Source: Christiangramia flava JLT2011 (GTDB lineage: Bacteria > Bacteroidota > Bacteroidia > Flavobacteriales > Flavobacteriaceae). From it: DNA of 64,000 bases. A program made the translations under genes and the position numbers. The stretch spans positions 637,001-701,000 of the forward strand of contig NZ_CP016359.1 of assembly GCF_001951155.1 (NCBI RefSeq). The letters run 5' to 3'. This document shows positions 33,300 through 48,708 of this stretch, one piece after another. Numbering within the stretch: position 1 is the stretch's first letter; the number at the start of each line of letters is the position of its first letter. Below the pieces are notes generated by a model. It was not told the origin of the DNA. It saw only the letters and a program-made list of their open reading frames with translations, and did not search any database.

Positions 33300-33672
33300 A
33301 CTCTGGTATAGGTTTTGTTCAATTATGAAGTGTCTCAAAGATATGAATTTAAATCTGTATCTTTGCTGGCCCAACCGGAATCTCTGGTTGGTATTCTTTG
33401 AAAATCTGGAGTTTTGAACAGGATTTTTCTGCTAACAGGCAGGCTGAAAATTTTAGTTTCTAATCCTGTTTAAAAATTTTGCGTTAGGGATAGCAGCGGA
33501 AATTCTTTAAAGGTATTGCGAGCGAAGGCGAGAAATTACACAGTAATTTTGAGCTAAAGCGAAAAATCATCTTTAAAGATTGAAGCGAATAGCCCGCCGC
33601 GACGGCGATAGCCGGAGCGGAACGCCCGCATAATTATAATTATAGCGGCAAAGAAGATGTTCATTATTTTAT
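33300..33672. repeat. Noncoding region ahead of ssrA with flavobacterial repeat-like element
   Basis: No gene is seen. A TATCTTTG promoter element lies at 33356-33363 (+), followed by a CCAACC/GGTTGG hairpin. From about 33480 the sequence opens with GCGTTAGGGAT and later holds several GC-rich repeats; within it lie the inverted repeat AAATTAC-ACA-GTAATTT and two CTTTAAAG palindromes about 65 bp apart. Elements beginning GTTAGGGAT recur in flavobacterial intergenic DNA, so I take this as a dispersed repeat; its role is unknown. Confidence 0.4.
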
Positions 33673-34070
33673 GGGGTCGACTTGGTTTTGACAGCGAGTC
33701 TAATTGAGTTGTAAGCACGTCGAGCGCTGGGATATAGCTCGTAAATCTCATATTTCACACTTTTTAAACGGCGAGAATAACTACGCCTTGGCTGCGTAAC
33801 CGAATCATAGTAGGTTTTGCTTAGTCTCTACAAGGTAGAGAGCCAAGATGTCTCGCGGGAGCCTTGATTTACGGCGCCCGCACCAGAGGCACCGATAAAG
33901 TAAATATAGGGAGCTCAGGGCCTTGATGAGTTTCTGAAATTTAATGGAGGATACGTGTAGAGTTGGTGGTTTTCGGCCGGCTTTGCATCGACAATCAAAT
34001 GAAAACTAAACGTGTAGAAAGCTTCTGAATTGCTTGTTTGGACGAGGGTTCGAACCCCTCCGACTCCACT
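33673..34070 (+). ncRNA. ssrA: Transfer-messenger RNA (tmRNA)
   Basis: The 5' end GGGGTCGACTTGGTTTTGAC and 3' end GGGTTCGAACCCCTCCGACTCCA pair to make the tRNA-like acceptor and T arms. The tag frame at 33770-33799 reads GENNYALAA followed by TAA, the Bacteroidota tag. Together with SmpB it rescues stalled ribosomes and marks the truncated protein for proteolysis. CCA is not fully encoded at the 3' end (CCACT), and the last base or two is uncertain. A terminator follows. An integrase gene begins 238 bp downstream, so this 3' end is also the insertion site of the island. Confidence 0.97.
34041..34070 (+). other. Probable attachment site (tmRNA T-arm/3' end)
   Basis: The T-arm and acceptor sequence of ssrA is a classic target of tyrosine recombinases, and one is encoded directly downstream. 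The gene is intact at this side, so the element brought or preserved the 3' end. No second copy of the T-arm sequence was seen in the window, so the other attachment site is beyond 64000 or lost. Confidence 0.5.
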
Positions 34071-34091
34071 TTTTGAGTATCAATCTCAATC

Positions 34092-34307: not shown

Positions 34308-35579
34308 ATGACCAAAAATATGAGCACTTCTTACCAACTTAGTTTTTACCTTCGAAAAAGCAGAAGCAACAAATCTTCTGAGAGTGATATTTACGTAAGA
34401 ATATCGGTAGATAATAAGCGATCTGCCATGACTATTAACCGCAAAGTGGATCCCAGGAAATGGCATTCGAAATCTGAAAAAATGCTGGGAAAAAGCCCTG
34501 AAGCGATAGAATTGAATAATTATATCAATGTAATTAAGAATAGAATCAAGAATATACACCAGGAACTCATTGAAAAGAAAAAATCTATTTCTTCAAAAAG
34601 CATACTTGATGAATTTAAAGGAGTAAATAAAAAGAAGCCTAAAATGACCCTGGAGGTATTTAATGAGCATAATGAACAAATGGATCGGCTTTCTGGTAAA
34701 AGCATCTCCAAAAGCACCGCAAAGCGATACTGGACCTGTTATAACCATGTAGAGCAATTCATAAATGAAGAATTGAAAGCTCCAGATTACCCGATGAATG
34801 ATATCAACCACCAGTTTATCACCAAATTCGAGTATTTTCTTAAGACTAAAAGAGAATGTAACCATAACTCTGCCCTGAAGTATGTAAACAATTTCAAAAA
34901 GATCATTCGAATCGCCCTGGCTAACCAGTGGATGGATCGTGATCCTTTCTATAATTATAAAGTGCAGTTTGAAACGGTGGAACGGGAATTTTTAAATGAA
35001 GAGGAAGTACAGAAGCTAATCAATAAAGATCTTCACCTGGATAGGCTAAAACTGGTGAGGGACATGTTTGTGTTTAGCTGTTATACCGGATTGGCATATT
35101 CTGACGTTAAAAAATTGAGCCGTGCAGATATTACCAAAGGCATAGACGGCGGGAAATGGATTCGAATTAAAAGAACCAAAACCAAATCGCTGAGCAGCAT
35201 CCCTCTCCTACCCGTTGCCGAAGAAATTCTGAATCGTTATAAAGACCACCCGGAAGTTAAAGACGGGAAGTATGTCTTGCCAGTTTTAAGCAACCAGAAA
35301 TCCAACGCCTTTTTAAAAGAGATTGCGGCACTATGTGGCATAAAGAAACCGCTAACCACTCACCTGGCCCGTCACACTTTTGCCACAACCATAACTCTTA
35401 CTAATGGTGTCCCAATAGAATCTGTAAGTAAGATGCTGGGCCACCAGGATCTTAGAACCACCCAGCATTATGCTAAAATCGTGGACCGGAAGATTAGTGA
35501 TGATATGAAGATGTTGAAACTTAAATTGGCGAGAAAAGAAGCTAAGAATCCTTCTTTCAAAAAAAATAGAAAGAAATAA
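34308..35579 (+). CDS. Tyrosine recombinase/integrase (IntDOT-like)
   Basis: The 423-residue protein has an arm-binding N-domain (about 5-95, SYQLSFYLRKSRSNKSSESDIYVRISVDNKR), a SAM-like core-binding domain (about 115-215) and a catalytic domain (about 225-405). Catalytic residues are HLARHTFATT (H-x-x-R), GHQDLRTTQHYAK (His and nucleophile Tyr), and a Lys in the beta-hairpin KRTKTKS. The usual first Arg (TGLR) reads TGLAYSDV, as in IntDOT-type enzymes of Bacteroidota, which lack it. It is located next to ssrA and should integrate and excise the island there. Confidence 0.93.
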   Translation: MTKNMSTSYQLSFYLRKSRSNKSSESDIYVRISVDNKRSAMTINRKVDPRKWHSKSEKMLGKSPEAIELNNYINVIKNRIKNIHQELIEKKKSISSKSILDEFKGVNKKKPKMTLEVFNEHNEQMDRLSGKSISKSTAKRYWTCYNHVEQFINEELKAPDYPMNDINHQFITKFEYFLKTKRECNHNSALKYVNNFKKIIRIALANQWMDRDPFYNYKVQFETVEREFLNEEEVQKLINKDLHLDRLKLVRDMFVFSCYTGLAYSDVKKLSRADITKGIDGGKWIRIKRTKTKSLSSIPLLPVAEEILNRYKDHPEVKDGKYVLPVLSNQKSNAFLKEIAALCGIKKPLTTHLARHTFATTITLTNGVPIESVSKMLGHQDLRTTQHYAKIVDRKISDDMKMLKLKLARKEAKNPSFKKNRKK

Positions 35580-35635: not shown

Positions 35636-36183
35636 TTAAAAGTTATTTTGAATCCATCTTAATTTTGACATATTTTCGAACTCCATTCTCATAATGCATT
35701 CGTCTTCCCTTACATGATTATTCAAAATTATTTCAGAAAATCCACAACCTCCAGAACTTTTTGCTTTTTTTAAGATACTAACGAGTGGGTAGAATGTATG
35801 TTTATAATTCCCTGCCCTGTACAATTCCTCTTCAAATCTAAGGCTTTCTTAGTATCACATATTATCAACGCACCAGTCCCTTCACTAAATCTTTTTGCAG
35901 ATTCTAATCGTCCCGTGAAACTAGTTATTTTATTTCTTTTGCTAATTCGTTCACAGGACCTAAACAAGATCGGTCTTGTTGTTGGTAAATAGTTTTTTAA
36001 TACAATATCCCATACGTCGAAGAATGCTTTCCTTTTTTCTTCAGGCCCAGTAAGAATCCAATTAGAAATAAATGTTATAGTTTGTTCAGCTATCTTAGCA
36101 TCTTTCTGTAAAATTTCAATTAGATTTTGAGCTATTTCACTCTTTTGATTTTTAGATAATCTATATTGAAATTGAAACTTCAT
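35636..36183 (-). pseudogene. ADP-ribosyltransferase-like gene broken by one frameshift
   Basis: Two minus-strand frames join into one protein if a single base is restored near 35833-35838: the 5' part ends ...IICDTKKALDL and the 3' part continues FEEELYRAGNYKHTFYPLVS. The merged product of about 180 residues has LPTTRPILFRSCER (R), KITSFTGRLESAKRFS (S-x-T/S) and a VREDECIMR block (E-x-E), the pattern of arginine-specific R-S-E ADP-ribosyltransferases. The family call is from motif pattern only. A sequencing error or real decay cannot be told apart. It lies next to probable defence genes. Confidence 0.45.
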
Positions 36184-36259
36184 ATTTTATTCTGTGATTC
36201 TATAATTAACCTTTTTCTGTAATATCCTTTTAAATGATTAACCATTGTTTTCCAGCTTA

Positions 36260-38308
36260 TTATTTAACCAATCTTAACTGAGACGAAATTTTTTCATCAA
36301 TCAAATCGGAATATTCATCTTCAAATTTGGTTTTAACTGATTTGTCTTTAATGTTTAGTTTATTTGAAAGATATCCTAATTTGCGTTTGTTCTGTTCAAT
36401 TAATTCAGACCATTCCATCACATAAACTTCAATGTTTTTCTCGGTTTTCACATCATATAAATAAGGCTTATCTGGAAAATTCGCTCTCCTGGATTTAACT
36501 TGAGATTTAGCATATTTAGTAAGTTTCGATGAAATCAATAATAGCTTGTATTTAACTTTTTCATTAGGTAAGGCAGAATGTTGTTCAATTGTAAAAGCGT
36601 ATTCATCGATTTGATTTAATTCTTTTTTACTTATAGAACATTTTGGAGCCTTTAATTCTACCACCATTATTTCTTTTACGTTAGAATCAGTTATTTTTTC
36701 ATTGAAAAAAAATAAATCTGTAATATCATTTAATCCTCGATCGTCTAATTCAATCAAATTATCGTCCTCTTCTGTAGGTTCATAATTGAAAAACTTTGTT
36801 CTTAATTCTTCTAGAATATTTCCTATTTTTTTATCCGACCATAATTGAGGAATCCCATTATAATTTTCTCCAAAAAGCCACAATTCATTTTCTACTATTT
36901 TATGAAGTTGACTTCGTTCTTTTAAATGTTTTGAGATCCCACCATAGGTCAATTCATGAAGAAAATCAAGAAATTCGGATTTCTGTGCTACTACACTAGC
37001 AAAGTGCACAACATCTTCGAGATCAGTTTTTTCCAGTAGATTATGGAACTTTTCCAAATTTTCATCTGATAGTTTCAAAAGTTTTTTAAATATATATTCG
37101 ATATTACCATTTGATATAGCTTTGTCTAATAAGGGATATAAGAAATTCCGAATTTTGTCATCTCTCTGGATTAATCTATGCTCATCTTCCAACAGGTATG
37201 CAACTTTCTTGAATAGTACTTCTTGAGATTTAGATGCTGGTTGACTATTATCTTGATAGGGATAATATTTATCTCTTTCTAGGCTATTTAAGAATTTTTC
37301 AAATCTTTTGTTTTTAGCTTTAAAGAAATGGTTGATGGCTTCTTTAATTGTATTTTTGAGATTTTTTATTTCTGTTTCGCCAAGTGTTTCAATATCCAAA
37401 TTCCTGAACAAATCTGTATTAAGCATTGCCGATTCAATATATATAAACCAAGTACCTAGATCAGGCGTATACCAATCCGAAGAATATGTGTATTCATGCG
37501 CTACACTTTTTAAACCTGCATTATCAGTTTGAAAAAACACTTTTACTTTTTTAAGTGATGATTTAATATTGTAGAAGTAAAAATTAAGTTGATGGGTTTT
37601 ACCCTTTTTATCAGTGTAATTTATTGTCTTTTTCGATGGTTTACCAATAACGAACTGTTCTCTTCTGAGTATGTGTCCATTGATAATAAAGTTTACAGTG
37701 TTGTGGAATATTTCGTATGGGTAGTGTTCGAAAATTGCTTGACTAATATTTTGCTGAAGGAAGTTTTCGTGTATTCTATTCCTTTTTGCAATATTTTCTT
37801 GCTTATTATGATGTAATTGTTCAATTATTACTTTGTAATAAGGGTTTTGTTTCGTTTCAAGATACTCGTAATCAACCTTAAATTCAGTTTCCTGTAATTG
37901 TGCATCATTAAAATCTAAGGTATCAATACTGAATTTCGTTTTGGAAAATTGTTTTTTTTCACTATCAAATCCGATAGTTTCAATATGCATTAACTCTCCA
38001 ATTTGAAGAGCGCTAAACCTACCTATTCCTTGTCCACTGGCTTTTACAGTTGTTCCTATTTCTAAAACTCTATTATCGAATTCGTTAAAAGGAACTCCAT
38101 AACCATCATCTTTAATTTCAATCCTCTTTATTGGTGACTTAATATTTGCTTCATTTACGTATTCAAGGTTGATTTCAATATTTTTTGAGTCAGCTTGAAT
38201 CGAATTATTTATTAGCTCACGAAATGCTTGAAATGTATCTTTATACTTTGTTAGAAGTTCTTTTATAACCCTGGTATTTGTAGTTATTTTTTTGGTTGTT
38301 GATTTCAT
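36260..38308 (-). CDS. GHKL ATPase fused to a C-terminal nuclease-like domain (candidate defence protein)
   Basis: This is a 682-residue protein. Residues about 15-130 are a Hsp90/MORC-type ATP-binding fold: FRELINNSIQADS (N box), IEIKDDGYGVP (G1) and ASGQGIGRFSALQIGE (G2). A long middle follows. Near residues 555-600 there is an Asp (DITDLFFF) and VVELKAP, a D...ExK arrangement like PD-(D/E)xK nucleases or Shedu/MORC-linked domains, with basic residues after it. GHKL-nuclease fusions are found in anti-phage systems; that role is inferred from architecture and the neighbourhood (island, P-loop ATPase, RM system). A similar name would be ATP-binding protein of unknown function. Confidence 0.65.
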   Translation of the reverse strand: MKSTTKKITTNTRVIKELLTKYKDTFQAFRELINNSIQADSKNIEINLEYVNEANIKSPIKRIEIKDDGYGVPFNEFDNRVLEIGTTVKASGQGIGRFSALQIGELMHIETIGFDSEKKQFSKTKFSIDTLDFNDAQLQETEFKVDYEYLETKQNPYYKVIIEQLHHNKQENIAKRNRIHENFLQQNISQAIFEHYPYEIFHNTVNFIINGHILRREQFVIGKPSKKTINYTDKKGKTHQLNFYFYNIKSSLKKVKVFFQTDNAGLKSVAHEYTYSSDWYTPDLGTWFIYIESAMLNTDLFRNLDIETLGETEIKNLKNTIKEAINHFFKAKNKRFEKFLNSLERDKYYPYQDNSQPASKSQEVLFKKVAYLLEDEHRLIQRDDKIRNFLYPLLDKAISNGNIEYIFKKLLKLSDENLEKFHNLLEKTDLEDVVHFASVVAQKSEFLDFLHELTYGGISKHLKERSQLHKIVENELWLFGENYNGIPQLWSDKKIGNILEELRTKFFNYEPTEEDDNLIELDDRGLNDITDLFFFNEKITDSNVKEIMVVELKAPKCSISKKELNQIDEYAFTIEQHSALPNEKVKYKLLLISSKLTKYAKSQVKSRRANFPDKPYLYDVKTEKNIEVYVMEWSELIEQNKRKLGYLSNKLNIKDKSVKTKFEDEYSDLIDEKISSQLRLVK

Positions 38309-38464
38309 TTTTACGAGGTTAGTAAGATTGAAGTAAGGTTATAATAAGTTTCGGGCCGAGAAACGTAGACTTGTAAGCTCAACTATTTTCTTTCTTGATT
38401 TTAAAATTAAATTTTTCAACAATTTCCGTTATTGGGATGAATTGCTGTAGTTATTAATATTTTT

Positions 38465-39913
38465 TCAATACACTTTCATCCTAAATTTCCTAGTAAATCC
38501 AAAATGAACAATCATTTTTTGGTTATGGTTAAAAGGTAGGTCGTCGTCTTTGTATTTGAAAAACCATCTTTTAGATTCGCTTAAAGTGCCTATTAAACCA
38601 AAATTAAAAAGTACTTCCAGTATATCTTCATGATTTTTATTGTTACTTTGTAAGTAGTTTACAATTTTGGAGTCATTCTCAAATTCATTTCTAATCTCAT
38701 CAAATGTTAATACTCCTTCATTTAACTTAATAAATGCTTGTGAAGCCTCCTGCCAAATTGGAAGGTGACTTTGGATTTCATCTCTAAATTCTCTGAAAAA
38801 CCATTCTGAAAATTCGACTTCAGCTTTTTTTACTGTCTTGAAATCTAACTTACCTTTGGGATTTTGCCTTTTACAATATTTCATGAATTTGATGATATCA
38901 CGAGGTCTTTCAAAAGTTCTGTTGTAAATAAACTCCCAAAGACTATTTATTTTTCTAGGTATATTTCTATCATTATTGATAGTTATTTGCTCCCAAGCTT
39001 TTTCAGGATACTTTACATTTATAGAAGCATTTATTCGAGCATTTATTAAATCATATAAAGAATAACTAGCATAAAACTCTTTGGTCCATTTTAAATTTAT
39101 GATATAATCATCGAGTTTATTTAAATCATTATCTTCAAGATTATTAAATATATCAGATCTCAGTGCTAAAACTGGTCTTATATTTAGATTATCCTTTAAA
39201 TCTAAAAATGTATTTTCAACTGCTCTAAATAGAGATAATAATAAAAGATTAAGATTTTTATCATTAGCTGAGTAACCTTCATCCAACTCATCGAATAAAA
39301 GAAAGAAATAACAATCTGATGTAGTGTCTTTAATCAACTTCATTAAAATTTCAGATGCTTTTTGGTAGTGAACACTAGTCATCACTTCATCTGAGGAACC
39401 TATTTTATTTTCATATCCTAACCATTTAGTAATAATTGATACTTTATTTTCATTTGATTTTAAATTTTTTAATGTTTCTGTAAAACCTAAATCAGATGGA
39501 AAGTTTATTTTATAAAATTGCTGTAATTTATTTACAGATTCGCATGAAATGATACTATTATCTTTAATTATTAATTTTCCTAATTCAGTCAGAATTAAAA
39601 AAGTCCAAATTGGAACAAATTGAGATTTGTTTCCTAATGATCTATCTTTTAATTCTCTAATTGTTTGTATAGGGAAATTTCTTAAAGATAAATATTTTAC
39701 AAATGAATTGTATTCTGAGGAAGCTTCATTAGCTATTTGCTCTATAATTGCAGTTTTACCAGTGCCTTTTCTTCCTATAATATATCTATACTCACCATTT
39801 TTAATTCCTTCATATTCAGGGATTTTAACAAAGTATTTTTTTAATTGGCGATCACCCTTAGCTTCATCTGGACCCCAATTTACTTTCTGAAAATCATTTT
39901 CAAATATTACCAT
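38465..39913 (-). CDS. P-loop ATPase, Sll1717-like (candidate defence ATPase)
   Basis: The 482-residue protein has Walker A GRKGTGKT (47-54) in YRYIIGRKGTGKTAIIEQIA and Walker B FFLLFDELDEGY (about residues 205-216), with further helical regions and a probable winged-helix-like C-terminus. The pattern fits the P-loop ATPase Sll1717 family (STAND/KAP-like), often found in mobile islands and sometimes next to effector genes. It is 156 bp from the GHKL gene on the same strand, possibly one defence unit. No nuclease domain is seen in it. Confidence 0.7.
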   Translation of the reverse strand: MVIFENDFQKVNWGPDEAKGDRQLKKYFVKIPEYEGIKNGEYRYIIGRKGTGKTAIIEQIANEASSEYNSFVKYLSLRNFPIQTIRELKDRSLGNKSQFVPIWTFLILTELGKLIIKDNSIISCESVNKLQQFYKINFPSDLGFTETLKNLKSNENKVSIITKWLGYENKIGSSDEVMTSVHYQKASEILMKLIKDTTSDCYFFLLFDELDEGYSANDKNLNLLLLSLFRAVENTFLDLKDNLNIRPVLALRSDIFNNLEDNDLNKLDDYIINLKWTKEFYASYSLYDLINARINASINVKYPEKAWEQITINNDRNIPRKINSLWEFIYNRTFERPRDIIKFMKYCKRQNPKGKLDFKTVKKAEVEFSEWFFREFRDEIQSHLPIWQEASQAFIKLNEGVLTFDEIRNEFENDSKIVNYLQSNNKNHEDILEVLFNFGLIGTLSESKRWFFKYKDDDLPFNHNQKMIVHFGFTRKFRMKVY

Positions 39914-40066
39914 AGTTTTATATTAACGAAATAAGTTATATACTCGGCAATATAACTCTTATATCTAAAAAATAACAAGGCTAATGAAGATGATCATCTT
40001 TTGGTGATTTAAAATGAATAGAATGTATTAATTAAAAAGGGGCAGAAAAGAAGTAGCTGGAGAAAT

Positions 40067-40321
40067 TTAATTTTCTAAGTCACTTAATGGAAAAGTAAAA
40101 TTATATAGTTCCATTGGATGAATACCTAAGCCTTTTGCAATAGGCAAAAGTGTAGTAATTTTGGGTTCATTTTCATCTGCCAGAACTCTATAAACTGCTT
40201 TAGTTTCAATATTTCCAATAGAAGCAATAGTTACGATATCCCGATCGCTTTCATCGATCAATTTTCTGAGATGCTCACTAAACTTTTTTCGATATGATGT
40301 TTGCCATTCCTTCACCAGCAC
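40067..40321 (-). CDS. XRE-type HTH regulator
   Basis: The 84-residue protein is one Cro/C1-type helix-turn-helix: FSEHLRKLIDESDRDIVTIASIGNIETKAVYRVLADENEPKITTLLPIAKGLGIHPMELY. It is divergent to the sigma/dCas12f operon. The 436-bp interval carries the palindrome TGTCAA-GT-TTGACA (40350-40363) 29 bp from its start and a promoter-like TATATTTG (40401-40408) facing the other way. It may control itself and, indirectly, the sigma module; this is inference. Confidence 0.75.
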   Translation of the reverse strand: MLVKEWQTSYRKKFSEHLRKLIDESDRDIVTIASIGNIETKAVYRVLADENEPKITTLLPIAKGLGIHPMELYNFTFPLSDLEN

Positions 40322-40756
40322 AATATCAAATCTAACAGTCGAAAAAAATTGTCAAGTTTGACACAATTAGAAAATAATTATTATATTTACCTCATATTAA
40401 TATATTTGCGAAACTTCTTAAAGTAAAATATTAGAAGCATTTCGCTTTGAATCTCGATCTAAAAACTGGTAATTTTTGTGCAACGAGATGATAAGCATAA
40501 TGCTCACGACCCGGGCGTGGGCTTGCTTGTTGTTGCACGGTATACCAGTACCTTAGATCGGCAAGTTGAGACTCCACGCCTTTTTACTTGTAGAAAAAGC
40601 GCATTTCTTCTCAACCTTTTTTCAAGGCTTTCTTCTTTTAAAAAATTTTAGAACTCGCATAGCTATTTAGTTATGTCCACTCCTGGATTTGACATTATAG
40701 CCGCAGCTTCACTCCCTACATGAAGCCTAAATTCTAACATTCTAAAGTTATCTGTT
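40322..40756 (+). promoter_or_regulatory. Control region and structured leader of the sigma/dCas12f operon
   Basis: It contains the palindrome TGTCAA-GT-TTGACA (40350-40363), a TATATTTG -7 element (40401-40408, +), and a large imperfect inverted repeat. The arms are CGATCTAA...ACTGGTA...GTGCAAC (40457-40486) and GTTGCAC...TACCAGT...TTAGATCG (40534-40562), with an inner CACGACCCGGGCGTG (40507-40521). A third hairpin, GCTTCA...TGAAGC, lies near 40710. If transcribed from 40401, the sigma gene would have a leader of about 340 nt. No gene was found in it. Confidence 0.5.
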
Positions 40757-41527
40757 ATGCGGGACGATAATTTCCATTTACTAAAACAGGGACATCCAGA
40801 TTCCCTGGTCAATATTCATGCACAATATAGTAGTCGGATATTTTGGATCGGTAAGCGACTCATCAGAGATGAATTTGTTATAGAAAACCTGGTCCAGGAT
40901 TGCTTTTTAAAGTTATGGGAGCATCGGGATACTATACAGTCGGCAGATCATATCTTATTTTTCCTGCGCTTCGTGATGAAACGTGAATGTATTTCCTATT
41001 ACACCAGGCCCAGGAATAAATTTTATCGGCAGCTGGGTCACCTAGAGAATTATGATAACCACCAGGATTATTTTGCCGGTCATGATGCTTTAGAAGAGTC
41101 GGAAATCATAAAAGAACATGATCAGCAGGAAAATGACCTTAAAAGGTTAAAAGAAGCATTGCACCTAATTGATCCTGCTCAAAAACAAGTGATAGAGCTG
41201 TGTTTAAAATATGGATTCCAGTATAAAATTATAGCTGGTATTATGGGAACGAGTACAACAGAAATTTATCACGATGTTCGAAAAGCGATCCAGTTACTTA
41301 AAGCCATACTGAACGAGGATAAAACAATCTTAGAAACTACTACTAATGCCTCAGAAGCAATCAATGTAGACCAACGAAAGGTATTCGAACTGCGTTGTAA
41401 AAAGCAATATTCCTTTCCAGAGATTGCTGATGAGTTGAATCTCACTCAAAAGGAAGTTCATGCGGCTTTTACTGCTGCATATAAAGTGATGCAGGAAAAA
41501 AATGATAGAGAATTAGAATCAGCCTGA
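40757..41527 (+). CDS. ECF-type RNA polymerase sigma factor with extra C-terminal sigma4-like domain
   Basis: The 256-residue protein. Sigma2 spans about 10-85, with the ECF block VIENLVQDCFLKLWEHRDTI (41-60) and FLRFVMKRECISYY. Sigma4 spans about 128-186 (LKEALHLIDPAQKQVIELCLKYGFQYKIIAGIMGTS). A second sigma4-like HTH follows at about 201-246 (VDQRKVFELRCKKQYSFPEIADELNLTQKEVHAAF). Normal ECF sigmas end after one sigma4 at 170-200 residues. Its stop is followed after one base by the dCas12f gene, so the two are co-translated. No FecR-like anti-sigma gene is present. I infer recruitment by the dCas12f-RNA complex. Confidence 0.85.
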   Translation: MRDDNFHLLKQGHPDSLVNIHAQYSSRIFWIGKRLIRDEFVIENLVQDCFLKLWEHRDTIQSADHILFFLRFVMKRECISYYTRPRNKFYRQLGHLENYDNHQDYFAGHDALEESEIIKEHDQQENDLKRLKEALHLIDPAQKQVIELCLKYGFQYKIIAGIMGTSTTEIYHDVRKAIQLLKAILNEDKTILETTTNASEAINVDQRKVFELRCKKQYSFPEIADELNLTQKEVHAAFTAAYKVMQEKNDRELESA

Positions 41528-41528
41528 G

Positions 41529-42626
41529 ATGAAAAAGCGAACCATGAAACTTACCAGGAAGATCCAGTTACTGGTCGATCTTCCAACCAAGGAAGAACGA
41601 AAGGAAGCTCTCGATTTGCTATACCAATGGCAGAACCGGGCGTATCGAGCAGCTAATCACATGGTGACTCATCTATATGTCCAGGAAATGATCAAAGATT
41701 TTCTGTATCTCTCTGAAGGAGTGAAATACAAAATAGCCGACGAGAAAAAAGATGAACTAGGAATTTTAACCGGTTCGCGTATTAACACCATCTACCGGGT
41801 GGTTTCCAACCGGTTTAAAGGCGAATTACCCACCAATATCCTGACAAATCTTAAAAGCAGTTTATATAGCTCTTTCAACCGGAATAAGCTTGAATACTGG
41901 AAAGGAGAACGATCTTTAAAGAACTTCAAAAGAGATATGGCTTTTCCGTTTGATACTGAAGGTATGAGTAAAATGATTTACGACGAAGAGAAAAAAGCCT
42001 TCTGTTTCCGGTTATTTAAAATGCCGCTTAAAACTTATTTAGGAAAAGACTTTACCGATAAAAAGATTTTATTGGAAAGGGTGATCAAGGGGGAAGTAAA
42101 ATTATGCTCCTCACATATCAAACTGAAGGATGGGAAGATCTTCTGGCTCCCGGTATTTGAGATCGAAAAAGAAAATCACCAACTAAAACCAAACGTGGTT
42201 GCCGAAGCTACCTTGTCTTTAGAACACCCAATCGTAGTGAAGACCGTTAGGGCGAAGTTGACGATCGGCTCAAGAGAAGAATTTCTATACAGGAGACTTG
42301 CCATTCAGGCCGCATGCAAAAGAGCGCAGAAAGGCGCTACTTATACCCGGGGTGGTCACGGAAAAGCCAGAAAAACCAAGGCTATGGCCAAATTTCAAGA
42401 TAGGGAAAGAAACTACGTAAACAACCGCATCCATGTCTATACCAGGAAGCTTATTGATTTTTGCATCCGCCACCAGGCCGGAACATTGATACTATTAAAC
42501 CAGGAAGCAAAAATCGGGATTGCAAAAAATGAAGAGTTTTTGCTGCGAAACTGGAGTTATTATGACCTTATGACAAAAATCAAATACAAGGCAGAGAAGG
42601 TTGGTATTGAATTAATAATAGACTAA
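41529..42626 (+). CDS. Nuclease-dead Cas12f/TnpB-like protein (dCas12f)
   Basis: The 365-residue protein has an N-terminal recognition half (about 1-210) and a RuvC-like C-terminal half. Clear TnpB/Cas12f blocks: RNYVNNRIHVYTRKLIDFC (295-313), AGTLILLNQE (317-326), and FLLRNWSYYDLMTKIKYKAEKVGIEL (337-362). Against TnpB GIDLGI..P..V, the segment EATLSLEHPIVV has Thr228 where the RuvC-I Asp sits. In RuvC-II, Leu323 replaces the catalytic Glu. It ends where the zinc finger and RuvC-III Asp should follow, so all three catalytic acids are gone. A guide-like RNA follows directly. It should bind DNA without cutting, positioning the co-encoded sigma factor. Confidence 0.85.
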   Translation: MKKRTMKLTRKIQLLVDLPTKEERKEALDLLYQWQNRAYRAANHMVTHLYVQEMIKDFLYLSEGVKYKIADEKKDELGILTGSRINTIYRVVSNRFKGELPTNILTNLKSSLYSSFNRNKLEYWKGERSLKNFKRDMAFPFDTEGMSKMIYDEEKKAFCFRLFKMPLKTYLGKDFTDKKILLERVIKGEVKLCSSHIKLKDGKIFWLPVFEIEKENHQLKPNVVAEATLSLEHPIVVKTVRAKLTIGSREEFLYRRLAIQAACKRAQKGATYTRGGHGKARKTKAMAKFQDRERNYVNNRIHVYTRKLIDFCIRHQAGTLILLNQEAKIGIAKNEEFLLRNWSYYDLMTKIKYKAEKVGIELIID

Positions 42627-42639
42627 AGTTTAGTTTCGA

Positions 42640-42757
42640 GGGTGCCTGTACACCCGTAAGGTGAGGTCAGTGACACTCACTAAATGCTTCGGCATTTACA
42701 GCGCGTGGGCTCACTAAAGTATTAGTAGGAATGATGTTTTCCTATATTCTGAAAAGG
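42640..42757 (+). ncRNA. Candidate guide RNA of the dCas12f module
   Basis: It starts 14 bp after the dCas12f stop. Hairpins: GGGTG/CACCC (42640-42655), GTGAG...CTCAC (42661-42680), and the perfect TAAATGC-TTCG-GCATTTA (42681-42698) with a UUCG tetraloop, as in Cas12f tracrRNAs. Then come GCGCGTGGGCTCACT and GTAGGAATGATGT (42725-42737). From memory, the last resembles the 3' end of Cas12f repeats (GAAGGAATGCAAC). The guide would then begin near 42738 (TTTCCTATATTCTG...). The exact ends and guide are unproven, and an alternative hairpin (ATGATGTTTTC...GAAAA...CATCAT) overlaps the guide. Confidence 0.6.
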
Positions 42758-42879
42758 TCATCATACTGTATTAGCCCGATGAGTATTAACACTAATTAAC
42801 ATTAAGTAACACAGGTTAACGCTTATTCGGCAATGAAATTATTTGTTTTAGTGCATTATTAATCACTAATCTTTTATTT
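42758..42879 (+). promoter_or_regulatory. Spacer between guide RNA and peptide gene, with TTAAC repeats
   Basis: The stretch 42783-42820 repeats TTAAC/GTAAC five times (ATTAACACTAATTAACATTA followed by AGTAACACAGGTTAAC). The rest is AT-rich with no exact TAnnTTTG. It is a possible regulator-binding or RNA-polymerase loading region ahead of the peptide gene. Confidence 0.3.
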
Positions 42880-43143
42880 ATGAAAAAGTTCTCATTACTT
42901 TTTGCATTTGGATTAATGTCTATTAGGGCATTTGCTTCTAACGATTAAGCCAGAACGGAATTCTCAACAATGGAGACCGAAACTATTGAAACATCTATAG
43001 AGACCTCTGACGATGAGACAGCGAATGCTGCCCTTCGAGCAGAGATTATCGTAAACTGCGAGGATGGATCATCTTACACTGTTAGCTGTGATAGCTGTAG
43101 TACTTCCCAACTAATTGGAATTGCCATGGCTCTATGTGCCTAA
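42880..43143 (+). pseudogene. Small secreted Cys-rich peptide gene with in-frame stop
   Basis: The ATG at 42880 gives a signal-peptide-like MKKFSLLFAFGLMSIRAFASND, then TAA at 42946-42948. The same frame continues without another stop to TAA at 43141 (88 codons in all, counting both stops). After the stop it encodes an acidic linker and a Cys-containing end (CEDGSSYTVSCDSCSTSQLIG). Continuity of the frame and of plausible sequence on both sides suggests one nonsense change (for example from CAA or GAA). It is small and unrecognised; it sits ahead of the GLPGLI and receptor genes and may be their substrate or partner. Confidence 0.5.
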
Positions 43144-43152
43144 CCAAAACAG

Positions 43153-43183
43153 CCTATCTCTCATTTTTGAGAGGAAGGTTTTT
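43153..43183 (+). terminator. Hairpin/terminator after peptide gene
   Basis: CCT...CTCTCA-TTTT-TGAGAG...AGG followed by TTTTT, 10 bp after the peptide frame ends and 20 bp before the GLPGLI start. It may attenuate read-through. Confidence 0.6.
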
Positions 43184-43203
43184 ATTACTCTAAAACTTTT
43201 AAA

Positions 43204-43998
43204 ATGAGATTTTTATTATTTTTTTTCTTCATAACCTTCATTAGTCTCTCTCAAGCACAGGAAAAGGGAATAGTTTATTATGGACATATTGAAAGTCCAG
43301 GAAAAGGTGGACCCGTAGGACTGGATTTTAATGCTTACCTGGTATTTAATAAAGAAGCATCCTATTATGTTACGGCAAAAGACTCGCTAGAGAATCAGTC
43401 AGAACTAGAAGAGAAAAAGATTAAAGAAGTAAATGGGACCAAACAAATTTACTTAGGCAAGCATACTCTTGCCCAGGGAAAGCAAGTGTATTACAATCGT
43501 AAAAAGGATAGCCTTTGGTGGAATAAAAAATATAAAGAACCAGTATATGGACGGGAGAAGCGAACAAAAATCGATTGGGTTTTAGGTTCAGAAACAAAAT
43601 CTTTTGGAGGACTCACGTGTCATAAAGCTACCGGTTCATTTCGGGGTAAAAATTATACTGCCTGGTACACCGATGCTATCCCCCTACCCTATGGCCCGTG
43701 GAAATTACAAGGCTTACCAGGACTGATTCTTGAAGCCTATGATGATGACAAAGAAATGTACATGTATTTTAAATCTGTAGAATATCCAACAGATAGAGAA
43801 TTAAGTGTAGGCCCGTTAGAAAAACCCAGAGATGATAAAGAATATCCATGGTTGTCAATTGACGAGTACAAACAGACACTGGAGAAGCTAGCTGAAAGAA
43901 GTAAAACAAAGGCGATACTGATTGCAAAGCAAATGGGTGGCGATGTGACGGTCAATCCTGGCGGAGTTGAGACTCTAAGCGTTGAGCTTTTTGACTAA
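43204..43998 (+). CDS. GLPGLI family secreted protein
   Basis: The 264-residue protein has a signal peptide (to SQAQ, about residue 19) and the hallmark LQGLPGLILEAYDDD (about 173-187), in the TIGR01200/GLPGLI family. Family members are widespread in Bacteroidota near TonB-type receptors; the function is not established. It is preceded by a hairpin and followed by a terminator-like hairpin and the receptor gene in the same direction. Confidence 0.9.
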   Translation: MRFLLFFFFITFISLSQAQEKGIVYYGHIESPGKGGPVGLDFNAYLVFNKEASYYVTAKDSLENQSELEEKKIKEVNGTKQIYLGKHTLAQGKQVYYNRKKDSLWWNKKYKEPVYGREKRTKIDWVLGSETKSFGGLTCHKATGSFRGKNYTAWYTDAIPLPYGPWKLQGLPGLILEAYDDDKEMYMYFKSVEYPTDRELSVGPLEKPRDDKEYPWLSIDEYKQTLEKLAERSKTKAILIAKQMGGDVTVNPGGVETLSVELFD

Positions 43999-44023
43999 AT
44001 AGATCGCTTACTATTACTATTCC

Positions 44024-44047
44024 AACCCCATTCATAATGGGGTTTTA
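44024..44047 (+). terminator. Hairpin with T-run between GLPGLI gene and receptor
   Basis: AACCCCATT/AATGGGGTT with TTTT after it. It lies 26 bp after the GLPGLI stop, so read-through to the receptor may be limited. Confidence 0.7.
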
Positions 44048-44059
44048 GTTTATCCCTGT

Positions 44060-46663
44060 ATGATGAGAATCTTTCTACTATTTTTTATGATATCAGCATG
44101 TAATTATGCTCAAGAAATTCGCATCACAGGTACTTCTTACGATAAGCAGTCCAAACCTCTTGAAACTGTTTTGGTGCAGGTGAGAAATTTGCAGAACGAG
44201 GTATTAGATTATACGTACACCAATGATTCCGGAAATTTCGAATTGCTGTTTAATAGTGATGATAATCCTATAATAATAGAGGCTTCCAGTCTGGGATATA
44301 CATCCCAAAAAAGAGAACTACATATCGAAAAGGAATTAGTCATACATGATATTGACTTCATCCTCGAGGAAAAAACAGAGTTTCTAAAGGAGGTACTTGT
44401 GGAAGGTCATCAAAAAATCAGAATTAGTTCTGACACTACCTTTATTCGTGTTTCACAATACACCACGGATAATGAGCAAACAGTGGAAGACATCCTAAAA
44501 AGATTACCTGGAATTGAGGTTTTAGAAGACGGAAGTATCAAGGCACATGGAAAACCAATTGAAAGCTTATTAATAGAAGGCGAGAATTTACTTGATGATA
44601 ATTACAAGGTTTTATCCAAAAACCTGGACGCCAAGACTCTGGAAGAAGTACAGATTTTAGATAACTACGAAGAGAATCCCATATTTAAACAGTTATCAAA
44701 TTCAGAAAAAGTCGCTTTAAACCTAAAGCTCAAAGACGAGTACAACTATGTTCTATTTGGAAATGTTTCCGGAGGATATGGCCTTAAAGATCGCTATGAA
44801 GCAGCTATGACTCTGGGGCTATTAAGAAAGAAAATAAAATTTCTGGAGTTTAGTAATTTTAATAATATCGGAGATAAAGGATCGCGATTATTGCAAAGCG
44901 AGCAAACAATCATTGATCTATCTCAAATGTTTCAGAAAATCGAAAAAAAGCCTTTTACAATATTTTCTATTGACCAGCAAGAAGAAGATGTTTTCAATTC
45001 CAGAAGTGTTTTTAATAACTCCATGCTCCACTCCCTAGGAGCATCTACCAAATTCAATGAGAAATTAACCTTAAGGGGTGATGTCAATATAATAGCAGAT
45101 AAAACTAGTCAGGACTACCAGGCTTTGACTGAATATTTTACAGGCAACAGTCGTTCTTCATTTTTTGAAACCAGTACTTACGCGAATAAAAACAGGATTG
45201 CTTCCTCAGAAATTGAATTTAAATTTTCTCCAGATGCGAAAAATTACTTTAGCAATACGGTTAGTTATTACTCAAATCCTCACGAAGCATCTAATTCGAT
45301 AATTTTAAGCGATCAGGAAATTTCTCAGAATAATGAAATTACATCGGAAACTTTTTATAATCATTTAGAGCACTCCTATTTATTATCAAAAACAAGTGGT
45401 CTGTATAACTACCTTTATTTTGGTTATGGGAACTCTAATGAAATAGCGCAAATAATTTATCCAGGTTTGCGTGATCTATTTCCGGTTCAGGAGAATTCCT
45501 TTTATCAAAAAGTTGGAAATAGATTTACTTATTATGGCCTTCAGAGTACCCTAATTTCAAAATACAACAAGTGGGAAAACGACTTACAATTACAGGTCCA
45601 TAATGAAACGGAGTCAGCTAATAGCAGGCTCTTTACGGAAACTCAACCAAATTTTGAAGGCTATAGTAACAATTTAGAGATCAATGATTCTTTTATAGGG
45701 TTCAGTAATTCTTTAAAATATAAATTGAAGAATGATAGTTATTTGAAAGGTAGTTTGGCTTTAAAAGAGCGTTGGTTTAATAATAAGAACTATTTGTTAA
45801 ATAATAGCAACTTCACTTTCAGGCATAAACTTAAGCAGTATGGGGTTATTCGATTAAGTTATACTTACAAAGAAGAATTACCAGGGCTGAAATTTTTGTT
45901 ACCTGCATATGCCATAACTTCTTATCAAAGTTTTAATAGCGGATCGGACGAAATCACCAAATTGAAAAATTCAATTTTTTCTCTAAACTACAGCCTGTAT
46001 AATGATCTTAAAGGATTTTCCATAAATAGCTCTCTTTTGCATACGGTAATCCATGACGGTTACGCATCGAATACTTTTGCAAACGAAAATTTTATTTTTA
46101 ATAGTCTGCTGCCTACCTCCAAAGGACATACCACTCTTGCCAATTTAGCATTTACTAATTATTTCAGCACCCTTCAGCTGGCAACTAATTCAGATACTAA
46201 TCAAAGTTTTATCAGATCCCCCCTATTTTTAGATCAAACCGAAGAATTAAGTCTTAAGAATTATTCGGGTACTTATTCCTTTTCTGTCAGCTCTTACTTT
46301 GATAAATGGCTAAATTTTTCAAGCGGAGTTCAATACCGATTTTCCAAGTCGGAAGTAGGCCCCAACTCCAACGAATTCACCACTACCAAAGTATTTGCAG
46401 ATTTTGAAACGAAATTGGGTCAGTCACTTAAGGTCAATCTTAATAATGAATTTTACTTTCAAAATAATGAAGAATACTTTTTTTCAAATGCCGAAATACT
46501 TTTCGAGCCGAAGGAAAAAAGATGGTCTGCAAGCCTTACTTTAAATAACCTGTTGGATGAAAAGGAATATTTGATACAACGAATCAGTTCTTTTAAATCC
46601 TACCAAAGGAGAATTAATCTAGTTCCAGCATATGCTCTGTTAAAGTTGAAGTACAGATTTTAA
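44060..46663 (+). CDS. TonB-dependent-receptor-like outer membrane protein
   Basis: The 867-residue protein has a signal peptide (to NYAQ, about residue 17), a CarboxypepD_reg-like domain (about 20-110: IRITGTSYDKQSKPLETVLVQV, GNFELLF, ASSLGYTSQKREL), a plug-like segment (about 115-235, EQTVEDILKRLPGIEVLEDGSIKAHGKPIESLLIEGE), and a barrel (from about 240) ending in a C-terminal aromatic strand (ALLKLKYRF). This layout belongs to the TonB-type/CarboxypepD-containing barrels that pair with GLPGLI proteins. The substrate is unknown. It ends 1 bp before the convergent response regulator gene. Confidence 0.82.
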   Translation: MMRIFLLFFMISACNYAQEIRITGTSYDKQSKPLETVLVQVRNLQNEVLDYTYTNDSGNFELLFNSDDNPIIIEASSLGYTSQKRELHIEKELVIHDIDFILEEKTEFLKEVLVEGHQKIRISSDTTFIRVSQYTTDNEQTVEDILKRLPGIEVLEDGSIKAHGKPIESLLIEGENLLDDNYKVLSKNLDAKTLEEVQILDNYEENPIFKQLSNSEKVALNLKLKDEYNYVLFGNVSGGYGLKDRYEAAMTLGLLRKKIKFLEFSNFNNIGDKGSRLLQSEQTIIDLSQMFQKIEKKPFTIFSIDQQEEDVFNSRSVFNNSMLHSLGASTKFNEKLTLRGDVNIIADKTSQDYQALTEYFTGNSRSSFFETSTYANKNRIASSEIEFKFSPDAKNYFSNTVSYYSNPHEASNSIILSDQEISQNNEITSETFYNHLEHSYLLSKTSGLYNYLYFGYGNSNEIAQIIYPGLRDLFPVQENSFYQKVGNRFTYYGLQSTLISKYNKWENDLQLQVHNETESANSRLFTETQPNFEGYSNNLEINDSFIGFSNSLKYKLKNDSYLKGSLALKERWFNNKNYLLNNSNFTFRHKLKQYGVIRLSYTYKEELPGLKFLLPAYAITSYQSFNSGSDEITKLKNSIFSLNYSLYNDLKGFSINSSLLHTVIHDGYASNTFANENFIFNSLLPTSKGHTTLANLAFTNYFSTLQLATNSDTNQSFIRSPLFLDQTEELSLKNYSGTYSFSVSSYFDKWLNFSSGVQYRFSKSEVGPNSNEFTTTKVFADFETKLGQSLKVNLNNEFYFQNNEEYFFSNAEILFEPKEKRWSASLTLNNLLDEKEYLIQRISSFKSYQRRINLVPAYALLKLKYRF

Positions 46664-46664
46664 T

Positions 46665-47345
46665 TTAAACCGTCAATTTATAACCGACCCCTCTTACATT
46701 AAGAATCTTTACCTCTTTATCCTTAATCAACAATTTCCTGAGTTTACTGATAAAGACATCCATACTTCTCGAAGCATAAAAATCATTATTCGGCCACATT
46801 AAATCTAAAACCGTATCCCGTTCGACTATCTTATTTTTATTCTCTGTTAACAATAAAAGCAACTGATTTTCTCGTCCTGATAGGGTTACAACCTTTTCAT
46901 TTTTATATTGTAAGGTTTGATTTTTCGGATTGAACTGGTATTGCCCCAATTGCAATCTATCTTCGGTTTTGATGGAGCGATTATAATTCATAAGATTTTT
47001 AACTCTAACAATGAGTTCTTCGATACTAAAAGGCTTCTTGAGGTAATCGTTGCCACCTGATTCGAACCCCGTTACCACATCTTGTGGCTGAGACTTAGCA
47101 GTAAGAAAGATGATGGGTGTTTTTTGGTCATTCTTCCTTATCTCTTTTGCTAAAGTAAGCCCATCCTTTACGGGCATCATAATATCTGTTACAATAATAT
47201 CAATAGAGTTTGCTTCATATATCCGCAATGCTTCATTTCCATCGCGAGAATGAAACACAATGAAATCTCTAGTTTCCAGACTTTCCTTAATAATCTGGGC
47301 CAGGGTGATCTCATCTTCCACTAATAAAAGTCTCGTTTTATTCAT
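46665..47345 (-). CDS. OmpR-family response regulator
   Basis: The 226-residue protein has a receiver domain (about 3-118) with acidic pocket Glu10/Asp11, phospho-Asp54 (VTDIMMPVKDG), Thr/Lys switch residues in FLTAKSQ and YLKKPF, and a winged-helix OmpR output domain (about 130-226: SGRENQLLLLLTE...VLDLMWPNNDFYASRSMDVFISKLRKLL...VRGVGYKL). It overlaps the kinase gene by 8 bp. The pair resembles RprXY of Bacteroidota. The receptor gene is convergent, so it is a plausible but unproven target. Confidence 0.92.
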   Translation of the reverse strand: MNKTRLLLVEDEITLAQIIKESLETRDFIVFHSRDGNEALRIYEANSIDIIVTDIMMPVKDGLTLAKEIRKNDQKTPIIFLTAKSQPQDVVTGFESGGNDYLKKPFSIEELIVRVKNLMNYNRSIKTEDRLQLGQYQFNPKNQTLQYKNEKVVTLSGRENQLLLLLTENKNKIVERDTVLDLMWPNNDFYASRSMDVFISKLRKLLIKDKEVKILNVRGVGYKLTV

Positions 47346-48708
47346 TAGGTACAGAGATAATAAATGATGTGGAATTGTTTTTTAAAATTACTTCAGCTGT
47401 TCCACCATGTTTTTCCGCTATCTTTTTTACATAATAAAGCCCCACTCCATAACCCTTTACATTATGTAAATTCCCTTGGGGAACACGATAGAATTTATCG
47501 AAAATTTTCTCGGACTGATTTTTCGTCAAATGACCAGGTTCGTCAATAACTTGAAGGGTTAAAGACTCACCATTATCAATTAAAATTTCAATTTTATCAC
47601 CTCCGTATTTTACAGCATTATCGATAAGTGCACCGAGGCAGTTTCCCAAATGAAAAGGTTCAATATATGCTTCGCTTTTAGAATCTTTAGAAATATTTAA
47701 AAGAATTGCTTTTTTTTGGGCGTTCATTTTATAATTGTCTATGATTTCTGCAGCCCAATTATGAATATTTACCTGTCGCTTTTCAAGAATCCAATTTTCA
47801 GTTTTTAAAAGAGCGGTATCCATAAGCTGATCTACCATAGTCTCCAGTTTTTTTAATTGTTGATCAGAATAGTCAAGATATCTATTTGTCTTTTCGATAT
47901 CATTATTGGTATTAAAATATCGTATACTCTCTAAAGCTGCCCCAATCGTGGATATAGGTGTTTTAAATTCATGGGTGATATTGCTGATTAAGTCATCTTT
48001 GATTTCTGAAAGTTGCTTTTGTTGCTTGATAACCCATTGCATATAAAATAAAGCAAATAGGATACAAACCATCAACAGTAAAGAAATTACTATACTGAAA
48101 AGACTTTTTTTCAAAATTATTATAATAGCGTTCGGAAATAACAATTCAATACTTTCCCGTGATTTCAAATAGGTAGATTTGCCTTGCACCGTAAAATCCC
48201 CAGAAGTAAAATTTTCAGTCCTAGAACTCGCATAAATTGAATCATTCTTAAGGTGATTCAACTTATAGGAAATATCATAATTTTTCCTATCCAGTTCCGA
48301 ATTTAATAAGCCTTTTAATTTTGTAAAATTGATAGAATCTTCATTGATGGATATATAAATATCCCTAATATTATTTAACATTTTGAGACTATCAGAAGCC
48401 TTAGGGATCGAAGCAGAGCTTAAACTATCACCGTTAATTTTATCGATAATTTGTCTATTCTGACCTTTAATTGTGATTTTTTCAGAATTGAAATCTCCTG
48501 CGTTGTTGACCCTTAATGAAACAGAATTGTCTTTTGCGAAATCTATGAAGTAATTATCAATAGCAACATCCAGGGCTTTTTGAATATCACTTTTAAATTC
48601 CATAGTGTTTTTCTGATACTCTGTATAACTCCAAATAATTTGAATCCCTATTATGGCAACTATAACAACGCTTAGAAGGTATGGGATTCGATTATACAGC
48701 TTTTTCAT
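47338..48708 (-). CDS. Membrane sensor histidine kinase
   Basis: The 456-residue protein has TM1 at about 10-28 (YLLSVVIVAIIGIQIIWSY) and TM2 at about 205-225 (SIVISLLLMVCILFALFYMQW), with a periplasmic sensor region of about 175 residues between. The H box is ISNITHEFKTPIST. The catalytic ATPase domain carries LIDNAVKYGGD (N), DEPG (G1 region) and GYGVGLYYVKKIAEKHGG (G2). It is translated before and overlaps the response regulator. The sensed signal is unknown. Confidence 0.92.
   Translation of the reverse strand: MKKLYNRIPYLLSVVIVAIIGIQIIWSYTEYQKNTMEFKSDIQKALDVAIDNYFIDFAKDNSVSLRVNNAGDFNSEKITIKGQNRQIIDKINGDSLSSASIPKASDSLKMLNNIRDIYISINEDSINFTKLKGLLNSELDRKNYDISYKLNHLKNDSIYASSRTENFTSGDFTVQGKSTYLKSRESIELLFPNAIIIILKKSLFSIVISLLLMVCILFALFYMQWVIKQQKQLSEIKDDLISNITHEFKTPISTIGAALESIRYFNTNNDIEKTNRYLDYSDQQLKKLETMVDQLMDTALLKTENWILEKRQVNIHNWAAEIIDNYKMNAQKKAILLNISKDSKSEAYIEPFHLGNCLGALIDNAVKYGGDKIEILIDNGESLTLQVIDEPGHLTKNQSEKIFDKFYRVPQGNLHNVKGYGVGLYYVKKIAEKHGGTAEVILKNNSTSFIISVPNE

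Follow-up and report, generated by a model that had tools for sequence, protein, structure and literature searches.

The 64,000-nucleotide (nt) stretch of Christiangramia flava JLT2011 analyzed here (the window; contig NZ_CP016359.1, positions 637,001 to 701,000) carries a module composed of an extracytoplasmic function (ECF) sigma factor gene, a gene for a nuclease-dead Cas12f homologue (dCas12f) and a guide RNA. One of the strands of a conserved leader RNA, found upstream of the module itself and of SusC genes elsewhere in the genome, is similar to the predicted guide. Judged from sequence, the case is built on the parts of the module and their linkage, the lost nuclease site, a leader with two predicted structures and its placement, and a guide–leader resemblance of about 16 nt. 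The chance that the sigma–dCas12f–guide RNA operon brings RNA polymerase to the shared leader-switch DNA and starts transcription there is considered to be about even. An earlier note on this DNA had described the module, but overlooked the position of the guide and what the guide resembles. Positions are those of the window unless stated otherwise.

The succession of an ECF-like sigma gene, one base and a Cas12f/TnpB-type gene claimed in the earlier note was borne out by open reading frames (ORFs) at 40757-41527 and 41529-42626 (both +) and by profile matches. The first encodes an ECF-type sigma factor of 256 amino acids, in which the family profile search found Pfam regions 2 and 4 as well as TIGR02985 and TIGR02937; chain C, "RpoE", of PDB entry 9n9q matched residues 4-256 (E = 1.8e-70). 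A second region-4-like stretch follows the usual region 4, best at residues ~203-242, and the alignment with the solved RpoE of 9n9q spans both stretches. The second ORF encodes a truncated protein of 365 amino acids, residues 1-364 of which matched "Nuclease-deactivated Cas12f" of the PDB (9n9c/9n9m/9n9o/9n9q; E = 1.4e-181), the solved relative having 72% identity. The NF040570 model (guided_TnpB) matched with E = 2.9e-14, below the model's own cut-off, the Cas12f2 match was weak, and a Pfam search of the window dCas12f returned no family. A search for dCas12f in one genome per species gave 95 encoded relatives; 80 were kept, giving 81 loci with the window. The sigma gene stood upstream of dCas12f in all 81, with a gap of 1 bp in 65. 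By homology and linkage, the window locus belongs to the known dCas12f–sigma kind, in agreement with the earlier note.

Residues were counted on the 79 full-length dCas12f sequences, two loci with broken frames (L028 and L080) being left out. The RuvC-I Asp position, 228, was occupied by Ser in 75, Thr in three and Cys in one, and never by Asp; the window has Thr228, as previously proposed. The proposed replacement of the RuvC-II Glu by Leu323 stood in part: the Glu is lost, with none at 323 or 324 in any of the 79, but the HMMER alignment to the Cas12f of 9nzo (E = 1.3e-42, residues 84-362) aligned it with Asn324 and left Leu323 facing a gap. In 72/79 sequences position 326 retains a Glu, which falls off the catalytic Glu in this alignment, one of sequences and not of superposed structures. 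After alignment, the nuclease site appeared dead in 79/79. The truncation described earlier also agrees with the alignment, in which dCas12f stops before the zinc finger and RuvC-III; its C-terminus falls opposite residue ~414 of 506 of 9nzo, past which we take these two elements to lie. The deactivation is natural, because the solved dCas12f chain of the PDB equals, with zero differences, the genome-coded protein of locus L008 (Allomuricauda taeanensis JCM 17757).

The guide RNA scaffold (GAGGGTGCCTGTACACCCG...GGCATTTACAGC; 42638-42702, +) was predicted to form three stems, and a scaffold of the form GAGGGTGC.TGTA.ACCC...ACTCACTAAAT...TATACAAC stood 3' of dCas12f in 80 of the 81 loci, with none in L028. 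Its consensus showed two-sided change in 5/16 pairs (45 units), and the window scaffold folding alone was not unusual (z = -1.6). The scaffold ends in ..ACAAC in relatives and in ..ACAGC in the window (last base 42702), followed by the predicted 16-nt guide GCGTGGGCTCACTAAA (42703-42718, +), whose border was set from 77 loci and whose length from its position-by-position identity to leaders. The RNA placed 3' of dCas12f in the earlier note was thus recovered but not its extent, as the guide starts at 42703 and a stretch to 42757 overruns. Readable guides amounted to 88 units in 77 loci (there was none in L028, L035, L065, and L080, and a second guide of L011 is outside the 88). Leader-like guides, with at least 7 of 9 matches to GCGTGGGCT (chance ~0.3% per guide), were found in 68/88 units and 67/77 loci; the guide of L013, clipped a few bases early by the search pattern, was scored as not leader-like. 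Only unrelated sequences stood at this position in the other 10 loci, so that the sequence after the scaffold is a variable guide rather than part of the scaffold.

Within the window, GCGTGGGCT was found twice (0.18 expected), in the guide RNA and at 40515, upstream of the sigma gene. The latter site lies in a conserved leader RNA (40439-40588, +) for which covariation indicated two mutually exclusive structures. In the antiterminator, the inner helix joins its 5' arm GCTCACG (40502-40508, +) to the switch strand GGCGTGGGCTTGCTTG (40514-40529, +), which is at once the antiterminator 3' arm and the 5' arm of an intrinsic terminator with the 3' arm CAAGTTGAGACTCCACGCC (40562-40580, +) and a T tract (40581-40585, +). 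Over 67 copies, 99.3% of cells were paired in the antiterminator hairpin, with two-sided change in 15/30 pairs, and 93.4% in the competing terminator, with two-sided change in 9/19 pairs. Each value leans somewhat toward its structure, because the antiterminator guided the alignment and the fold of the window supplied the terminator. Neither score was reached by any of 500 shuffles, and slid versions gave at most 42.6% and 58.8%, respectively. In L005, L011, and L102 three strands change jointly, from CACG/CGTG/CACG to CACA/TGTG/CACA, and the G-U pairs of the leader are consistent with the sense strand. Upstream of the leader lies TATATTTG (40401-40408, +), a TANNTTTG box, presumably the Bacteroidota -7 motif; such a box occurred at -60 to -10 in 66 of the 81 distinct leaders versus 3.5% of 5000 random windows from the same loci.

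No Rfam family matched the leader (40439-40588) at the gathering score, and of three weak matches at E up to 5 in 40300-43210, none overlapped it. Flavo-1 was considered as its identity and rejected, as the Flavo-1 match sits elsewhere. Rfam 15 has no family for this RNA switch.

Of the 68 leader-like guides, 31 were compared with leaders of the same genome, the best leader being picked on positions 1-17. Among these, 19 had no early T run and showed identity of 0.74-1.0 at positions 1-16 except position 11 (0.47), and of at most 0.47 thereafter, while the 12 guides with a T run had identity of at least 0.83 at positions 1-10. This fall after position 16 points to a guide length of about 16 nt. 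Individual guides varied, with that of L031 matching over 18 nt and that of L015 over 14 nt. In the window, the predicted guide-like DNA target (+) starts at 40515 inside the switch strand, with G40514 as the adjacent base.

The leader was found before the sigma gene, at a distance of ~1 kb (1.5 kb at most) from dCas12f, in 51 of the 81 loci, 39 by pattern and 12 by a covariance model built on 34 copies; in L047 and L056 it lies 3.5-4.4 kb upstream. Among 37 dCas12f genomes tried, 36 had a leader, and 30 leader loci from dCas12f genomes comprised 15 before the module sigma gene, seven before SusC, one before another sigma gene and seven before neither. The source genome has a strong copy at 3447793 before an intact SusC-SusD-M16 peptidase operon and another at 1081141 (L093) before an incomplete SusC split into two frames, followed by ORFs that, judged by eye, are SusD- and M16-like. 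A fourth match, at 1219153 (E = 1e-15), lies before a hypothetical gene and may belong to another leader subclass, as may the weak matches L146-L152, none of which stands before SusC. In a sample of 149 genomes of the family (cut-offs of E 1e-6 for the leader and 1e-60 for dCas12f), the leader was present in 33 and dCas12f in eight; all eight dCas12f genomes had a leader, compared to 25 of the 141 others (Fisher p = 2.8e-6). One locus each was inspected in 22 of these 25 genomes without detected dCas12f, and the leader stood before SusC in 12 and before an ECF sigma gene in one; all 13 were among the 15 loci with E < 1e-20, and the seven weaker loci gave none. By its distribution, the leader is a switch in its own right, in most cases of SusC, and the dCas12f guide is similar to it. 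Ordinary ECF sigma genes 3' of a leader were observed in L144 (1783-2313; genome without detected dCas12f) and L120 (453-977).

In the proposed mechanism, the guide would base-pair at 40515-40530 to the template strand of the leader, next to G40514, and the same pairing would occur at both SusC leaders. The sigma factor would recruit RNA polymerase, and transcription would start downstream of the R-loop covering 40515-40530, that is, of the terminator 5' arm. Since RNA from any start past ~40530 would be without this arm, it would escape attenuation and should not end at 40581-40585, whatever the exact distance. Without the module, the TANNTTTG-box leader would yield mostly terminated transcripts until some signal favored the antiterminator. 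The module would thereby switch on both itself and the SusC-SusD-M16 operons under RNA guidance. More tentatively, and somewhat short of an even chance, a single guide might address an entire regulon, overriding attenuation at every copy of the leader, before SusC-SusD and before its own self-activating operon.

Several observations weigh against recruitment to the leader. The guides did not track the leader of their own locus (permutation p = 0.71 and 0.34), and tracking of leaders of the same genome fell short of significance (p = 0.057), so that the argument rests on a shared core and not on locus-specific coevolution. The window guide fits modestly, with 11/16 matches to its own leader and 13/17 to that at 1081141, and the source genome alone held eight near matches to it versus six to the reversed pattern, which is no excess. 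The guide of L008 (TTGTGGGATATA...) had no second match at 3 mismatches. Guides of the Chryseobacterium type enter a T run after 7-11 matching bases and have an extra G that would make the adjacent base C, unlike the G that stands next to the match in the window leader. No leader was found close upstream of the sigma gene in 30/81 loci, L018 having too little DNA to tell, and the L017 genome has a leader-like guide yet no leader at E 1e-10. Of the eight dCas12f genomes in the family sample, six have a leader copy before sigma–dCas12f and two (G080 and G117) have leaders elsewhere only, so that the co-occurrence partly restates linkage. The leader must also have another function, because it is present in 25 genomes without detected dCas12f. 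RNA pairing of guides with the terminator 3' arm, finally, is about as good as that of the leader's own arm.

Some of these points would fit an RNA-guided activator with true targets elsewhere, its leader-like guide being a relic or one of several. The imperfect fit of the window guide, the lack of significant tracking, the 10 loci with unrelated guides only and the loci with several scaffolds (two or more copies within 1 kb 3' of dCas12f in L019, L020, L021, L024, L029, L030, L047, L056, and L057, and a second copy 5 kb away in L025) all point in this direction. However, a leader-like guide has been kept in 67/77 loci across many genera, and leaders were present in nearly all of the dCas12f genomes tried, which makes targets elsewhere an unlikely explanation. 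A serious rival, to which a slightly lower probability is given, is that the 3' end of the guide RNA pairs in trans with the terminator 3' arm and blocks termination, dCas12f–sigma acting as a carrier. The guide–leader identity stops about where the terminator arm stops, and the duplexes predicted for 16 guides with the 3' arm (-11.6 to -19.6 kcal/mol) are near those of the leader's own arm. Deviations at paired positions were divided, as 8/18 retain pairing whereas 10/18 break it; 20 of the 88 guides are unlike the leader, the relatives are kin of DNA-guided Cas12f, and antitermination alone would presumably need no linked sigma factor.

Instead of recruiting polymerase, dCas12f could act as a roadblock in the leader, halting polymerase coming from the TANNTTTG promoter and repressing the SusC operons and itself in the manner of dead TnpB regulators. 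The target does lie 106 nt downstream of the conserved promoter-like box, and RNA-guided dead TnpB regulators (TldR) exist, according to an excerpt of PMC13418256. A pure repressor, however, would need neither a sigma gene linked in every locus nor one with a solved relative in the PDB entry of dCas12f, and this reading is regarded as improbable, a little more so than pairing in trans. It is far less probable that an ordinary ECF sigma gene simply adjoins the decaying remains of a TnpB gene, the two being functionally unconnected, as the lack of a Pfam family for dCas12f might suggest; the frame is full-length in 79/81 loci, gene order is constant and spacing mostly so, the RNA is conserved and the structures are solved. 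Recruitment of polymerase to the leader DNA by the guide is retained as the preferred reading.

Among known systems, the dCas12f-RpoE (sigma-E) complexes of 9n9c/9n9m/9n9o/9n9q are alike in protein homology over the whole length, gene order, lost RuvC residues and a 3' guide RNA, but come from other species with another guide, whereas the window guide resembles the leader switch strand. A bioRxiv preprint of 2025 by Hoffmann, Wiegand, Sternberg and others reportedly deals with exapted Cas12f homologues in RNA-guided transcription, with a 5'-G adjacent motif at the target and a start site fixed by its distance from the R-loop. Unlike TldR, for which we know of no sigma partner, the window dCas12f is linked to a sigma factor. 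The likeness to TldR is that of nuclease-dead TnpB/Cas12 kin serving gene control, the regulated gene described in the same excerpt being flagellin (PMC13418256). CRISPR-Cas12f nucleases share the family, but the window protein is without the catalytic residues and the C-terminal part. Attenuator leader RNAs likewise have two exclusive structures and a terminator with a T tract; the window leader differs in having no overlapping Rfam family and in that its shared strand is the one the guide resembles.

A literature search with preprints outside its scope gave no paper on dCas12f–sigma among the matches listed, and another, judged by title and start of abstract, gave no paper about this leader among the matches listed; as far as these searches reach, the link between guide and attenuator is undescribed. 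The natural targets of dCas12f–sigma systems decide what RNA-guided transcription serves, and a guide resembling a widespread attenuator strand would offer a direct and testable answer, namely surface nutrient import and self-activation. The leader is of interest in itself, as a switch absent from Rfam that occurs in 25/141 family genomes even where dCas12f was not detected.

The locus did not qualify as a CRISPR-Cas12f immune system, which has an active RuvC site and adaptation genes or an array, nor as an IS200/IS605 TnpB element, which has a Y1 TnpA partner. Neither Cas1 nor Y1_Tnp was found in the whole source genome by searches that were positive in 9/14 and 5/14 control genomes, respectively, and 36000-48000 contained no CRISPR (clustered regularly interspaced short palindromic repeats) array, only a single two-copy 20-nt repeat, in line with the absence of these elements reported in the earlier note. 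The mobile island of that note was also supported. By its boundaries, the module lies in an integrated element of 33.7 kb, since a tyrosine integrase gene (34308-35579, +) stands beside the transfer-messenger RNA (tmRNA) gene (33673-34071, +), the attachment site, and the tmRNA 3' end is present as a 16-bp direct repeat, at 34055 (34055-34070) and at 67744, past the end of the window. The element also carries a coupling protein, HipA_C, RadC and a DUF5712 protein that may be relaxase-like, as inferred from its position. Directly 5' of the tmRNA gene lies the Flavo-1 RNA (RF01705, 45.4 bits) at 33476-33603.

Other guides and candidates were examined as well. A guide candidate at a repeat-like end farther 3' (GGAATGATG followed by TTTTCCTATATTC...) matched its own locus and a 3-mismatch site in a HAD-like gene only, and was dropped when the relatives fixed the scaffold/guide border. 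A target search with the Echinicola guide AAAAATCCGATCTAA gave 160 near matches in its genome versus 139 with the reversed pattern, only slightly fewer, and was rejected. The Paenimyroides guide had a local near match at 5968 of L056, but no ORF of at least 100 amino acids followed until 7016, and this candidate was likewise rejected. L056 has four scaffolds, and several multi-scaffold loci carry differing guides. In L011 (11103-11300) two guides are split by a repeat-like hairpin (ATATGAAAGAGGCATATACAAC), resembling the remnant of a two-unit CRISPR array; the second, partial repeat has the guide GTGTGGGATTACTTATT, similar to its leader GTGTGGGCTCACTTATT.

A small divergent HTH-like gene (40067-40321, -; weak Pfam match, E = 0.049) lies upstream of the window leader, and small divergent genes also adjoin both SusC leaders, one matching HTH_3 (E = 5.7e-13) and one without a family. 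Immediately 3' of the guide RNA is a short ORF (42880-42948; ATGAAAAAG...), followed by GLPGLI and a large CarboxypepD_reg-type protein.

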